Assembly: GCA_016191165.1 (NCBI GenBank)
Contig: JACPPF010000158.1
Location: 1-64,000, forward strand
Origin: Planctomycetota bacterium
GTDB taxonomy: Bacteria; Planctomycetota; Planctomycetia; Gemmatales; Gemmataceae
DNA length: 64,000 bases
Reading direction: 5' to 3'
The position numbers and the translations under genes are program-made. The notes beneath the pieces were generated by a model, which did no database searches, was not told the DNA's origin, and worked only from the letters and a program-made list of their open reading frames with translations. This document shows, piece after piece, positions 33,406 through 39,049 of the stretch; position 1 is the first letter of the stretch; the number at the start of each line of letters is the position of its first letter.

Positions 33406-33672
33406 ATGAAGCGAAGCCTCAACACACTTGACCGCCTCGTGGAGCCCGTGGTCCGTACGCTAACTCCGGACGTTGCGAAAGCCCTTGTGGATTTACGCGC
33501 CGATCCAGTTTTGCAGGCACGCATGGATGAACTGGCCGAAAAGTGCAACGAGGGCAAACTCACGGCGGACGAGCGCGAGGAGTATGAGACGAGTATCCGT
33601 TTTGGCAACTTCATTGCCATTCTGCAAGCCAAAGCGCGGCGGTTGCTCAAACGCCGGCCGAACCGAACATGA
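33406..33672 (+). CDS. Small protein preceding HNH nuclease
   Basis: An 88-residue soluble protein starting MKRSLNTLDRLVEPVVRTLT. It is mostly helical and charged, with MDELAEKCNEGKLTADEREEYE in the middle and a basic end LLKRRPNRT. Its stop overlaps the ATG of the HNH gene (33669-33672, ATGA). This two-gene arrangement recurs in planctomycetes and cyanobacteria, as far as I know; the small protein may regulate the nuclease. Confidence 0.75.
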   Translation: MKRSLNTLDRLVEPVVRTLTPDVAKALVDLRADPVLQARMDELAEKCNEGKLTADEREEYETSIRFGNFIAILQAKARRLLKRRPNRT

Positions 33673-34052
33673 ACGCCCACAGACGCCGACAAGTTTGGTC
33701 GCGGGCGAATTATCGCTGCGAATATTGCCAGCTCCACCAGGATGACGAGCCGTACTATCGCTTTCACGTCGAACACATCACTTCCAAGCAACATGGCGGC
33801 GGTGACGGACTTGCCAACTTGGCCCTGGCATGTCACCATTGCAATCGGCACAAAGGGACCAATCTTTCCAGCATTGACCCGCGGACCGGAAATGTGGTGA
33901 CTTTGTTTCATCCGCGCCGGCAGCGATGGGATCGCCATTTTCGACGCCTTGGGGGGCGCGTGGTGGGTCGAACGCAATGCGGTCGCGCCACCGTCGCGCT
34001 TCTGTGCATGAATATGCGCGATCGCGTTGAAATTCGGAACGTGGTGGGGTAG
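33669..34052 (+). CDS. HNH endonuclease
   Basis: A 127-residue protein with a compact HNH domain: CEYCQLHQDD (first zinc knuckle), FHVEHITSKQHGGGDGLANL with the catalytic His, and CHHCNRHKG (second knuckle) in the first 60 residues. The tail holds GRTQCGRATVALLCMN, a conserved end segment of this small group. Preceded by, and overlapping with, a small charged protein gene. The biological target is unknown. Confidence 0.88.
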   Translation: MNAHRRRQVWSRANYRCEYCQLHQDDEPYYRFHVEHITSKQHGGGDGLANLALACHHCNRHKGTNLSSIDPRTGNVVTLFHPRRQRWDRHFRRLGGRVVGRTQCGRATVALLCMNMRDRVEIRNVVG

Positions 34053-34106: not shown

Positions 34107-34135
34107 TTGACACCTCCCTTAATTAGGCCTACCTT
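34107..34135 (+). promoter_or_regulatory. Possible promoter of the metal-import operon
   Basis: TTGACA at 34107-34112 and a weak TACCTT at 34130-34135 with a 17-base spacer. The inverted repeat at 34121-34160 covers the -10 element, so a protein bound there would block transcription. Confidence 0.45.
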
Positions 34136-34160
34136 ATATCTCATTAAGGCAAACCTAATT
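34121..34160. promoter_or_regulatory. Metal-regulator operator, inverted repeat
   Basis: AATTAGGCCTACCTT (34121-34135) and AAGGCAAACCTAATT (34146-34160) with a 10-base centre. The outer seven bases AATTAGG/CCTAATT and the inner CCTT/AAGG match exactly as inverted repeats. The TTAGG...CCTAA pattern resembles DtxR/MntR-family boxes. Placed 20 bases before the likely start of the lipoprotein gene whose operon encodes a DtxR-like domain. Confidence 0.65.
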
Positions 34161-34180
34161 CTCTTATCGTGCGGCCCTTC

Positions 34181-35137
34181 ATGCGACGACTTTATCCGCT
34201 ACTCGTCCTTTTTCTCACTCCCGTCCTGTTCGGCTGCGGCCGGGAATCCCAGGCGAAGTTCGGCGGGCGCACGCTCAGCGTCACGCAGACGCATCAGAGC
34301 GATCGGCCGATTAAGGTCGTTTGCACCACCGGCATGGTGGCGGACCTCGTTCGCAATGTTGGCGGTGATCGTATCGCCGTCGAGCAACTTATGGGAGCGG
34401 ATGTCGATCCGCACCTTTACAAGGCAACCTTTGCCGATGTCACCAAGATGAACGACGCCGATGTCATTTTCTATTCCGGGCTGCACCTGGAAGGCAAGAT
34501 GACCGAAGCCCTGGAGGAGTTGGCTCGCAAGAAGCCGAGTTTTCCGGTGACGGAGTATCTCAAGCCCACGGCGATCCTGATCGACGCCCATCAACATCCC
34601 GATCCGCATGTCTGGTTTGACGTTTCGCTCTGGAGTGAAGTCGCCGGCATCATCGGCGATGCGCTGGCGCTTTACGATCCCGCCAACTCCGCCATTTACA
34701 AAAAAAACATGGCCGCCTATCGCCTCAAACTGGCGGAACTGCATGACGAGGCGAAGAAAAAAATCGCGTCCATCGAGCCCGTGGAGAAGCGGGTCATGGT
34801 CACATCGCATGACGCCTTCCGCTATTTCGGCCGGGCGTACGGCCTTGAGGTGCGCGGCATTCAAGGCATCAGTACCGATGCCGAGGCGAGCGTGCGGGAC
34901 ATCAATGAACTGGTGGACTTCCTCGTCCGGAGGAAGATCAACGCCGTGTTCGTCGAGACCAGCGTCAGCCCACGTACTATGAAATCCCTCCAGGAAGGCT
35001 GCAAGGCCCGTGGCCACACGGTGGTGCTGGGCGGCGAGCTTTTCTCCGATGCGATGGGCAAGGAAGGCACGGCGCAAGGGACGTACATCGGCATGATCCG
35101 GCACAATGTAAACACCATCGTGAAAGCGCTCAGGTAA
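34181..35137 (+). CDS. Metal ABC transporter substrate-binding lipoprotein
   Basis: A Zn/Mn/Fe-type (cluster A-I, TroA/PsaA/YtgA-like) binding protein of about 318 residues. The lipoprotein signal MRRLYPLLVLFLTPVLFGC has the lipobox Cys. Metal ligands fit by position: His in ADVDPHLYKA, His in HPDPHVWFD, Glu in GISTDAEAS, Asp in GGELFSDAMG. The Glu rather than His in the third place favours Mn or Fe over Zn, but with low certainty. The start could also be GTG at 34169. It is first in a four-gene operon. Confidence 0.93.
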   Translation: MRRLYPLLVLFLTPVLFGCGRESQAKFGGRTLSVTQTHQSDRPIKVVCTTGMVADLVRNVGGDRIAVEQLMGADVDPHLYKATFADVTKMNDADVIFYSGLHLEGKMTEALEELARKKPSFPVTEYLKPTAILIDAHQHPDPHVWFDVSLWSEVAGIIGDALALYDPANSAIYKKNMAAYRLKLAELHDEAKKKIASIEPVEKRVMVTSHDAFRYFGRAYGLEVRGIQGISTDAEASVRDINELVDFLVRRKINAVFVETSVSPRTMKSLQEGCKARGHTVVLGGELFSDAMGKEGTAQGTYIGMIRHNVNTIVKALR

Positions 35138-35168: not shown

Positions 35169-35195
35169 GTTGCGCTCAAAACGGTGGACGGAAAC

Positions 35196-36017
35196 ATGAA
35201 CGCCATGCACACGGTCGATTCGAGCGCCGCACCAACAATCAAACACGCCGTGAAGGTTCCGATCCTCGACGTTCACGATGTCACCGTCGCCTATCATCGC
35301 AAGCCGGTGCTCTGGGACATCGACCTGACGTTGACGCAACCGTGCCTGCTTGGCATCGTCGGTCCGAACGGCGCGGGCAAAAGCACGCTCATCAAGGCAA
35401 TTCTGGGGTTGGTGCCGCTCGTGAGCGGGTCGGTGCAAATCTTTGGGCAACCCGTCACAAGTCAGCGAAAGCGAATCGGCTATGTGCCGCAGCGGGAGAG
35501 CGTCGATTGGGAATTTCCCGTCAGCGTTCTCGACGTGGTCTTGATGGGCACGTATGGGAGCCTGGGCTGGTTTCGCCGGCCAGGCGCGACGGAGAAGGCC
35601 TGGGCGCGTCAGTGTCTGGACATGGTCGGGCTGCGCGATCTGGAGGATCGCCAGATCGGGCAACTTTCCGGCGGGCAACAACAACGCACTTTTTTGGCTC
35701 GCGCCCTGGCCCAGCAGGCGGACGTTTATTTCATGGACGAGCCGTTCGCCGGCGTCGACGCGGCCACCGAGCGCGCGATTTTTTCGCTGCTCGTCAATTT
35801 GCGCGAGCAAGGAAAAACGGTGTTGGTTGTCCACCACGACTTGCGCACGGTGCCGGCGTATTTCGATCAAGTCGCATTGCTGAACGTGCGTCTGGTCGGC
35901 AGCGGGCCGACTGCCACCGTGTTCAACGAGGGCAACCTGCGCCAGACCTATGGCGGCCGGCTCGCGGTCTTGGAAACCCTGAGCCAGGCGGTGGAGGCGC
36001 AAGAGCGCACGAAATAA
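35196..36017 (+). CDS. Metal ABC transporter ATPase
   Basis: A 273-residue ABC ATPase of the Mn/Zn/Fe import family (ZnuC/MntB/YtgB type). Walker [10 protein letters not shown] is at about residues 55-63, the signature LSGGQQQR at about 157, and Walker [12 protein letters not shown] at about 178. A His follows in VVHHDLRT. The ATG at 35196 is preferred to GTG at 35184. Second gene of the operon; a repeat lies on each side of it. Confidence 0.95.
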
Positions 36018-36154: not shown

Positions 36155-37063
36155 ATGACCGATTGGCTCACCTACAACAGCCTGATCGTTTTGCAAGGCG
36201 TCACGCTTCTTGGCGCTTGCTCGGGCGTCATTGGCTGTTTCGCCGTGTTGCGACGGCGCTCGCTGGTCGGCGATGCGCTGGCCCATGCGTCTCTTCCCGG
36301 CGTGTGCCTGGCTTACCTGATCATCGGCGAAAAGCACTTCTTTGCCATGTTGATCGGAGCGTTCCTCTCGGGCCTGCTCGGCATCGGCTTTCTGGCGATC
36401 TTGCGCAAGTTCACGCGCATCAAGGAGGACGCCGGGATTGCGATCTTGCTTAGTGTTTTCTTCGGAGCGGGAATTGTCTTACGCAGCGTGATCCAGCAGA
36501 TGCCCGCGAGTGGACGGGCGGGGCTGGATTCGTTCATCTTCGGGCATTCCGCGGGCATTGTGCAAAGCGATGTTCACTGGATCACGGGTCTGTCCGCCGG
36601 CACGCTGCTGATCGTGCTATTGTGCTACAAGGAATTTCGGCTCGTCGCATTCGATCCAGAGTTCGCCCAGGTCCAGGGTTGGCCCGCGCGGCTCCTCGAT
36701 TTCGCGTTGATGTTGCTCCTGCTCGGCGCGGTCGTGATCGGCCTGCCAGCAGTCGGCATCCTTTTGATGGCGGCCATGCTGATCATTCCCGCGGCGGCGG
36801 CCCGGTTCTGGACGCAGCGGTTTTCCTTTCTGCTCCTGCTCTCCGCCGGCGCCGGCATGGGGTCAGGCATCGTCGGCACGATTCTCAGTGCGAAATTCGG
36901 GGTTCCGACCGGAGCGTGCATCATTCTGGTTTGTGCCGCCTTCTTCTTCATTTCGCTGCTTTTCGCGCCGGGCCGGGGCGTGGTGGCGCGCATCCTGGCG
37001 CGCCAGCGCAATAACCTGGCCCTGCAAGCGCAAATGAAAGCGGGAGAGGAGCCGCCGCCATGA
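36155..37063 (+). CDS. Metal ABC transporter permease
   Basis: A 302-residue ABC-3 family permease with eight or so hydrophobic helices. ATPase-contact region: RRRSLVGDALAHASLPGVCLAYL at about 30-52. It continues with FGAGIVLRSV and the GLPAVGILLMAAMLIIPAAAARFW segment at about 192-215. Its stop overlaps the next start by ATGA (37060-37063). It works with the other permease half as a heterodimer. Confidence 0.95.
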   Translation: MTDWLTYNSLIVLQGVTLLGACSGVIGCFAVLRRRSLVGDALAHASLPGVCLAYLIIGEKHFFAMLIGAFLSGLLGIGFLAILRKFTRIKEDAGIAILLSVFFGAGIVLRSVIQQMPASGRAGLDSFIFGHSAGIVQSDVHWITGLSAGTLLIVLLCYKEFRLVAFDPEFAQVQGWPARLLDFALMLLLLGAVVIGLPAVGILLMAAMLIIPAAAARFWTQRFSFLLLLSAGAGMGSGIVGTILSAKFGVPTGACIILVCAAFFFISLLFAPGRGVVARILARQRNNLALQAQMKAGEEPPP

Positions 37064-38376
37064 CCGGAGCCGAGTTCCATCAGGCGTTCTGGACGGTCGC
37101 CATCGCGGCGGTGTGCAGCGTGTCGTGCGCTCTACTCGGCTGTTTTCTCTTGCTCAAACGTATGAGCATGTTGGGCGACGCCATCGGCCACGGCGTGCTG
37201 CCTGGCATCGTCCTCGCGGTGCTGCTGACAGGACAGGTCACGAGCGTTTATGTGCTGCTTGGCGCGATGATCTTCGGCGTCTTGACTGCGGTACTGTCCG
37301 AGACGCTCGCGTCGTCCACGGAAGTCACCGAGGACGCCGGGTTGGGGGTCGTGTACACCTCGCTCTTCGCGGCCGGCGTGATCTTGCTGTCGGTATTCGC
37401 ACGCCATGCCCATCTCGATCTGGATTGCGTATTCCTCGGTCTGCTTGAGGTCGCGCCTTTACGAACCATGTCGTTTCTCGGTTTCGACATTCCGCGCGCG
37501 GCGCCGACGATGGCGCTGGCCCTGGGATTGACGCTTGGGTTTCTGTTGGTGTTCTGGAAGGAATTGAAGATCGCGGCATTTGATCCCGCCCTGGCCGCGT
37601 CGATGGGGTTTTCGCCCCGGGTCATCAACTATCTCCTCATCGCCCTGATCGCGGGGAACACGGTCTCGGCCTTTGAGGCGGTCGGCTTGATCCTGGTCCT
37701 GGCGGTCCTGATCGTGCCGGCGGCCAGCGCCCACTTGCTCACGGATCGCCTGGGCGCGATGCTCGGCTGGTCGGCGTGCTTCGCGTTATCCGCGTCGGTA
37801 CTCGGCTTTGCCCTGCGCGGCCTGGGCGGGTTCTCGCTCGACATCTCCGGGATGATCGCCGTGGTGTTGGGCGTGCAGTTTGCCGTCGTTGTGCTGCTGG
37901 CGCCGCGGCATGGCATTCTGGCAAAGGCGTGGCGCAACCTTCGACTGTCGCTGCGCATTGCCGCGGAGGATATTCTCGGGACGCTCTATCGCGCGGAGGA
38001 AGCCGGCGTCGTCACGTTTTCGCTCGCGCTGAAGGACCACGGGCTTTCGAGCTGGGTGATCTGGCTGGCGCATCGCCAGCTGGTCCAGGCGGGGTGGATC
38101 GAGACCAACGACAAGGGCCTGCTCGTTTTGACCGCTTCGGGCCGGCAGCGAGCGCAATACGTGGTGCGGTCGCATCGCCTCTGGGAGACGTTCGCCGGTG
38201 AGTTCCTCGACCTGCCCGCCGACCATGTCCACACGGCTGCCGCCCGGGTCGAGCACTACATTGGCCCAAAGTTGCAGGATGAACTCGCCACGGCCCTCAA
38301 CCAACCGCCGATCGATCCGCACGGCAAGGCGATCCCTCCGTCCGCTGTTGAGACCCCGCCGCCGCCAGCGAATTGA
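37060..38376 (+). CDS. Metal ABC permease fused to a DtxR/MntR-like repressor
   Basis: A 438-residue fusion. Residues 1-290 are an ABC-3 permease (RMSMLGDAIGHGVLPGIVLAVLL near 35-56; AVGLILVLAVLIVPAASAHLL near 210-230). From about 298, AAEDILGTLYR opens a DtxR/MntR-like winged helix (LSSWVIWLAHRQLVQAGWIE, then GLLVLTASGRQRA). Next is VRSHRLWETFAGEFLDLP and VHTAAARVEHYIGPKLQDEL, which match the metal-binding dimerisation helix, then IDPHGKAIP. In a by-eye alignment the His before and the Glu-His pair are kept, but the Cys/Glu ligand position is Ala. The layout equals chlamydial YtgCR, reported to release its repressor part. Confidence 0.9.
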   Translation: MTGAEFHQAFWTVAIAAVCSVSCALLGCFLLLKRMSMLGDAIGHGVLPGIVLAVLLTGQVTSVYVLLGAMIFGVLTAVLSETLASSTEVTEDAGLGVVYTSLFAAGVILLSVFARHAHLDLDCVFLGLLEVAPLRTMSFLGFDIPRAAPTMALALGLTLGFLLVFWKELKIAAFDPALAASMGFSPRVINYLLIALIAGNTVSAFEAVGLILVLAVLIVPAASAHLLTDRLGAMLGWSACFALSASVLGFALRGLGGFSLDISGMIAVVLGVQFAVVVLLAPRHGILAKAWRNLRLSLRIAAEDILGTLYRAEEAGVVTFSLALKDHGLSSWVIWLAHRQLVQAGWIETNDKGLLVLTASGRQRAQYVVRSHRLWETFAGEFLDLPADHVHTAAARVEHYIGPKLQDELATALNQPPIDPHGKAIPPSAVETPPPPAN

Positions 38377-38572: not shown

Positions 38573-39049
38573 ATGAAAGGCAACGACCAGGTCATTGAAG
38601 CGCTTAATCGCGCGCTGACCATCGAACTGACGGCGATCAACCAGTACTTCTGCCAGGCCAAGATGTGCATGAACTGGGGCTTCAAGCTCCTTGGCAAGAA
38701 GCACTACGAGGAATCGATGGGTGAAATGAAACATGCCGAGAAGCTGATCGATCGCATCCTTTTCCTCGACGGCGTTCCGGAGATTGCACGCTACGACGTG
38801 ATCCGCGTCGGCACCGATGTGAAGGAGCAATTCGAGAACGATCTCAAGCTCGAAATGGGCGGCGTGAACCACTACAACGCCGCGATTGAGCTGTGCGCCA
38901 AGCTGAAGGACAACGGCACGCGCGAACTCCTGGAGCCGATCCTGGTCGAATCGGAAGAGCACGTCGATTGGCTGGAAACGCAGCTTGGCCTGATCGCATC
39001 GGTCGGGTTACAAAACTACCTGTCGGAGCAGATGGGCGGGCACGGTTAG
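38573..39049 (+). CDS. bfr: Bacterioferritin
   Basis: A 158-residue iron-storage protein aligning without gaps to Escherichia coli Bfr. Heme Met52 is in EMKHAE, and ferroxidase ligands Glu18, Glu51, His54, Glu94 and His130 are in place. At position 127, where Bfr normally has Glu, this protein has Ser (LVESEEH: Glu126, Ser127, Glu128). The ATG is preceded by AAGGAG. It follows the metal importer operon after a Fur-like palindrome, consistent with iron control of storage. Confidence 0.95.
   Translation: MKGNDQVIEALNRALTIELTAINQYFCQAKMCMNWGFKLLGKKHYEESMGEMKHAEKLIDRILFLDGVPEIARYDVIRVGTDVKEQFENDLKLEMGGVNHYNAAIELCAKLKDNGTRELLEPILVESEEHVDWLETQLGLIASVGLQNYLSEQMGGHG

Follow-up and report, generated by a model that had tools for sequence, protein, structure and literature searches.

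MntR/SirR/TroR-type operators are palindromes at the promoters of Mn/Fe ABC importers, in genomes that carry a repressor of the DtxR family; for Treponema TroR, an 18-bp dyad lies before troA (PMC2628430). Several repressor dimers may occupy neighbouring palindromes. SloR, which controls both an ABC importer and mntH, binds cooperatively as multiple dimers at sloABC and mntH (PMC12096823), and B. subtilis MntR likewise binds cooperatively at mneP as multiple dimers on 18-bp sites 1 bp apart (a 19-bp step), where it is activating (PMC11275975). DR2539 from Deinococcus radiodurans is reported to be a Mn/Fe-dependent repressor of the DtxR family that binds the mntH promoter (PMC3327659). A different architecture is found in Chlamydia, where the repressor YtgR is fused to a permease, cleaved off and autoregulates its own operon (PMC6504234).

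The locus described here lies in a planctomycete contig, of which a stretch of 64,000 nucleotides (the window) was analyzed. Like the MntR/SirR/TroR-type systems, it has a palindrome at the promoter of a Mn/Fe-type ABC importer and a DtxR-family repressor in the genome, but it differs in that its two 14-bp boxes keep a fixed 22-bp step and the likely repressor gene lies outside the operon. The predicted binding of several dimers to neighbouring palindromes resembles SloR and MntR at mneP; in contrast to the latter, its boxes follow each other at 22-23 bp, and their position points to repression. With DR2539 it shares the link between a DtxR-family repressor and an mntH promoter, in another phylum. 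As in YtgCR, a metal-import operon encodes an ABC permease with a C-terminal DtxR-like part, but the planctomycete additionally has a standalone MntR-like protein, the winged helix of the fused part is eroded, and the box is also found without the fusion.

A pair of palindromic boxes at the importer promoter

The operon is encoded on the plus strand and begins with a substrate-binding lipoprotein of the Mn/Zn/Fe type (ZnuA/MntC family, 34181-35137; Pfam ZnuA, 1.8e-79). Its start is the ATG at 34181, with a GTG at 34169 also possible, and its NCBIfam matches are to Mn and Zn binding proteins, under the equivalog cut-offs. On the same strand follow an ABC transporter ATPase of the Mn/Fe type (35184-36017; Pfam and NCBIfam profile matches), an ABC-3 family permease (36155-37063; Pfam ABC-3, 7.4e-65) and an ABC-3 permease fused to a DtxR-like C-terminal part (37060-38376), which was assigned by Pfam ABC-3 and Fe_dep_repr_C matches, DtxR-family PDB relatives and conservation. 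A bacterioferritin gene (38573-39049, plus strand) was identified by TIGR00754 above cut-off and by synteny. Within the genus, bacterioferritin sits directly downstream of the importer, be it the ABC operon or mntH, and a check of its leader turned up no box. A small HNH endonuclease gene (33669-34052) directly precedes the operator in the window; in G062, its place within about 150 bp of the promoter is taken by the end of an unrelated conserved gene.

The initial annotation had described a symmetric 40-base site beginning 8 bases after TTGACA, and this inverted repeat, AATTAGGCCTACCTT-ATATCTCATT-AAGGCAAACCTAATT, is present exactly as given at 34121-34160, downstream of TTGACA at 34107-34112. 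Each half of the 40-bp site forms a palindrome of its own, of the form TWAGG-N4-CCTWA. Box 1, TTAGGCCTACCTTA, occupies 34123-34136 and box 2, TAAGGCAAACCTAA, 34145-34158, neither with an assigned strand; start to start they lie 22 bp apart, and the box and the 22-23 bp spacing are kept in relatives. The stretch from 34121 to 34160 is better read as two boxes than as one symmetric site.

Uniqueness was assessed by genome-wide pattern search. The exact 40-bp sequence is single copy in the 7.2 Mb genome, and within the window no second copy was found at up to three mismatches, with zero in shuffles as well. The pattern TWAGGN4CCTWA occurs in the whole 7.2 Mb only at 34123-34136 and 34145-34158, compared to 35 matches for the reversed control pattern. 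Three further double-box matches in the source genome, each at three mismatches, were discounted, as the reversed control gives 45. The arms are symmetric at 12 of 15 positions (binomial p 1.2e-5, rising to about 0.19 once positions and gaps are roughly allowed for). Arm symmetry by itself is thus modest evidence, and significance comes from the comparison with relatives: the site is significant because the box pattern is unique in the genome and relatives keep the pair far more often than shuffles produce it.

TTGACA (plus strand) is the probable -35 element, supported by its sequence and by a similarly placed TTGAC in seven relatives, where it lies 14-18 bp upstream of a box start. From this distance it follows that box 1 would cover the -10 and box 2 the region just downstream, i.e., box 2 is expected over the first transcribed bases. 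The presumed -10, TACCTT at 34130-34135, is located 17 bp after TTGACA and inside box 1. Of the two promoter elements, TTGACA is conserved and the presumed -10 is weak: no standard sigma-70 promoter passes the 4-of-6 plus 9-of-12 rule (reference TTGACA and TATAAT at 16-18 bp).

An inverted repeat at this position could also act as a leader RNA hairpin, i.e., an attenuator or terminator, instead of a DNA operator. The strand does fold at -12.4 kcal/mol (z = -2.2). However, the presumed start point lies within the repeat, which would leave the left arm untranscribed, a terminator-like site was looked for and none was found, and relatives conserve the box words and their spacing, not the stem. 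We consider a hairpin function very improbable.

By sequence, position and gene association, the predicted operator is of the DtxR/MntR kind. It is likely, in our assessment, that a trans-acting MntR-type repressor, activated by Mn(II), uses it as a twin operator, and the standalone MntR-like protein is the candidate for this role. From the arrangement we infer the following mode of control. The two 14-bp TWAG-N6-CTWA boxes, spaced by roughly two turns of the helix, would overlie the -10 and the transcription start of the operon for the manganese ABC importer. With enough Mn, and perhaps Fe too, in the cytoplasm, one dimer of the standalone protein would bind each box on the same face of the DNA, probably cooperatively, and block RNA polymerase. 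When Mn is short, the repressor would leave and the importer would be made. Dimers two turns apart on one DNA face over the -10/start region fit repression. The metal is most likely Mn and perhaps Fe, in view of the reports on SloR, MntR and DR2539.

Conservation before ABC importers and mntH

Searching for the same repeat upstream of related planctomycete operons, as the initial annotation had proposed, showed that 15 of the 22 testable promoters of the order carry a TWAG-N6-CTWA pair at 22 or 23 bp before the first gene of the ABC operon, with one mismatch per box allowed and with the promoters of related genomes not being independent. Dinucleotide shuffles of these promoters yielded no pair in 492 of 500 rounds and one pair in the other 8. 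Spacings cluster at 22, 23 and 44-45 bp, and two others lie at 56-57 bp; the values outside 22/23 (44, 45, 56 and 57) stem from promoters whose boxes are twice as far apart or that contain additional boxes. The number of boxes varies: some promoters have a single box or three, others have boxes at a spacing of 44-45 bp, and no box at all was found in the ABC-operon promoters of three genomes (G080, G081 and G070).

A strict pair search across 102 genomes was positive in nine. In five of these the pair lies upstream of the binding-protein gene, in two upstream of mntH and in one upstream of a DUF1559 gene; the ninth pair falls in low-complexity DNA. The pair match in G034:C340 was set aside for low complexity, and a near-match in G041 was set aside as a short tandem repeat.

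The pair also precedes mntH, which encodes a Mn importer unrelated to the ABC operon. Among the 17 genes above cut-off in the order, all of which were included, 14 (each in its own genome) carry the pair. The remaining three are preceded by a single box, and one of these single-box promoters is shortened by a contig end. Here, 300 shuffles gave 0 or 1 pair. In the genus of the source genome, mntH (G064 and G065) and the ABC operon (the other five genomes) are mutually exclusive. The G065 locus reads, in order, the same upstream gene as for the ABC operon, the twin box, mntH and bacterioferritin, and the G064 locus the twin box, mntH and bacterioferritin. Judged by this gene order, mntH in these two genomes takes the place that the ABC operon has elsewhere in the genus, behind the same operator. 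An operator was thus retained while the transporter behind it was swapped. As a side observation, the mntH of G037 (L162:185-2119) carries a fused universal stress protein domain (Nramp plus Usp, 645 aa), and the related genomes G038-G040 have open frames of similar length.

These promoters also bear on whether a single large oligomer binds all 40 bp as one wide operator with an overall dyad, or whether the two boxes are autonomous. In the genus, the inner arms (CTTA/TAAG) are mirror images just as the outer arms are, and central complementarity within boxes (0.41) equals that between boxes (0.42); therefore, symmetry alone cannot tell whether there is one large site or a pair of smaller ones. 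Before the same gene classes, however, boxes also occur singly, in triple arrays with 22-bp steps and in pairs at a 44-45 bp spacing, which makes a single wide operator improbable. These arrangements agree with the earlier idea of two dimers, one on each half, as do the TWAG-N6-CTWA palindrome formed by every half and the recurrence of the 22-23 bp register. Likewise, the proposed resemblance of TTAGG/CCTAA to DtxR/MntR boxes gained support from the genome-unique pattern and from the conserved pair before metal importers.

The fused permease and the standalone MntR-like protein

Since the same pair precedes unrelated Mn importers in related bacteria, a separate MntR repressor probably reads the site, and not the fused one. 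The source genome encodes such a standalone protein on another contig (G000:C165:37864-38529), with the domains Fe_dep_repress, Fe_dep_repr_C and FeoA. Of the 102 genomes of the order, 87 contain a match to it, as do 68 of the 71 good ones; a few of these matches are partial or cover only the fused domain. The standalone protein has a near-invariant recognition helix (V-K/R-APSVTGMLKRL). All three genomes with boxless ABC promoters are among those in which the standalone protein was not found. In G064 the box is present with no match to the standalone protein in an assembly that is 74% complete, and in G065 the standalone protein is present and the fused domain absent.

Nearest solved relatives of the standalone protein include ScaR, SloR and, as the top match, the putative repressor 8pvt. 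PDB entry 8pvt is probably the DR2539 protein. The NCBIfam equivalog cut-offs for MntR were not reached (best match NF047407 MntR, 145 bits versus 350), and we therefore refer to the protein as MntR-like. By eye, an Asp is found where MntR has Glu99 and DtxR has Cys102, and given this residue the metal specificity of the protein is uncertain.

The DtxR-like part of the fused permease consists of an eroded winged helix (about residues 300-357) and a metal-binding/dimerisation domain (358-426). It matches PF02742 (Fe_dep_repr_C) and has DtxR-family structures among its PDB relatives; the Pfam search gave no match in the fused protein to PF01325 (Fe_dep_repress), the DNA-binding domain. In nine genomes holding both proteins, the mean pairwise identity of the recognition helix is 0.42 for the fused protein versus 0.85 for the standalone one, and the fused dimerisation domain and permease reach 0.59 and 0.55. 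The alignment shows indels in the recognition-helix region of the fused protein. The fused DtxR-like domain has probably kept metal binding and dimerisation and lost sequence-specific DNA reading. The fused permease has four named relatives, of which three come from planctomycete assemblies, one of them labelled Pirellula sp., and the fourth from a verrucomicrobial assembly. Across the order, C-terminal winged-helix-like extensions, with or without the dimerisation domain, occur on either permease (L036, L038, L040, L045-L047 and L071-L085), and in L045-L047 the fuller DtxR-like part sits on the first permease.

The initial annotation had suggested autoregulation by the fused repressor, in the style of chlamydial YtgCR, with the DtxR-like part binding the boxes, perhaps after cleavage. 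Besides the chlamydial precedent (PMC6504234) and the family matches, this is backed by the predicted fold of the fused domain as a solo sequence, in which the elements follow one another as in a winged helix, albeit at low confidence (pLDDT 59.5). Yet the twin box stands before mntH in genomes that have no fused protein, and it also precedes ABC operons (L072 and L073) with a permease devoid of the dimerisation domain, so that the operator is not restricted to fusion-bearing genomes. Conversely, three distant fused operons (L172, L173 and L175) showed no box, and their genomes have a diverged standalone protein (38-43% identical). By sequence comparison, the fused permease appears to lack two features of an autoregulator, namely a conserved DNA-reading helix and an operator limited to genomes with the fusion. 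Autoregulation thus seems unlikely, and the standalone MntR-like protein appears to be the better candidate regulator. The two proteins may act jointly on the site, because in genomes of the order examined for both, the standalone protein occurs beside the fused one. A transporter-fused repressor domain need not regulate its own operon.

With the standalone protein as its likely repressor, the twin box defines a testable manganese regulon for a planctomycete order; by title or abstract, none turned up in the literature searched. The predicted regulon also links DUF1559, a large uncharacterised planctomycete family, to metal supply. Tandem MntR-type boxes in the 22-bp register lie up to about 80 bp upstream of pseudopilin-like DUF1559 genes in nine genomes (G005, G009, G037, G038, G044, G055, G006, G091 and G065; loci L139, L140, L146, L147, L151, L152, L054/L068, L167 and L169), with triple arrays in G037 and G038. 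Each of these nine box-bearing genomes has 35 to 108 DUF1559 matches. The DUF1559 genes behind the box and the transporter carrying a degenerate repressor domain are the more novel by-products of the analysis. More tentatively, and with the balance leaning against it, the captured repressor domain could serve as a metal-sensing gate on the transporter while the standalone MntR-like protein runs transcription, and the box-bearing pseudopilin-like DUF1559 proteins could be part of planctomycete manganese acquisition. In a further genome (G019, locus L141), a near-match double box is located 173 bp upstream of a gene for a membrane protein that, by eye, looks like the PepSY type.
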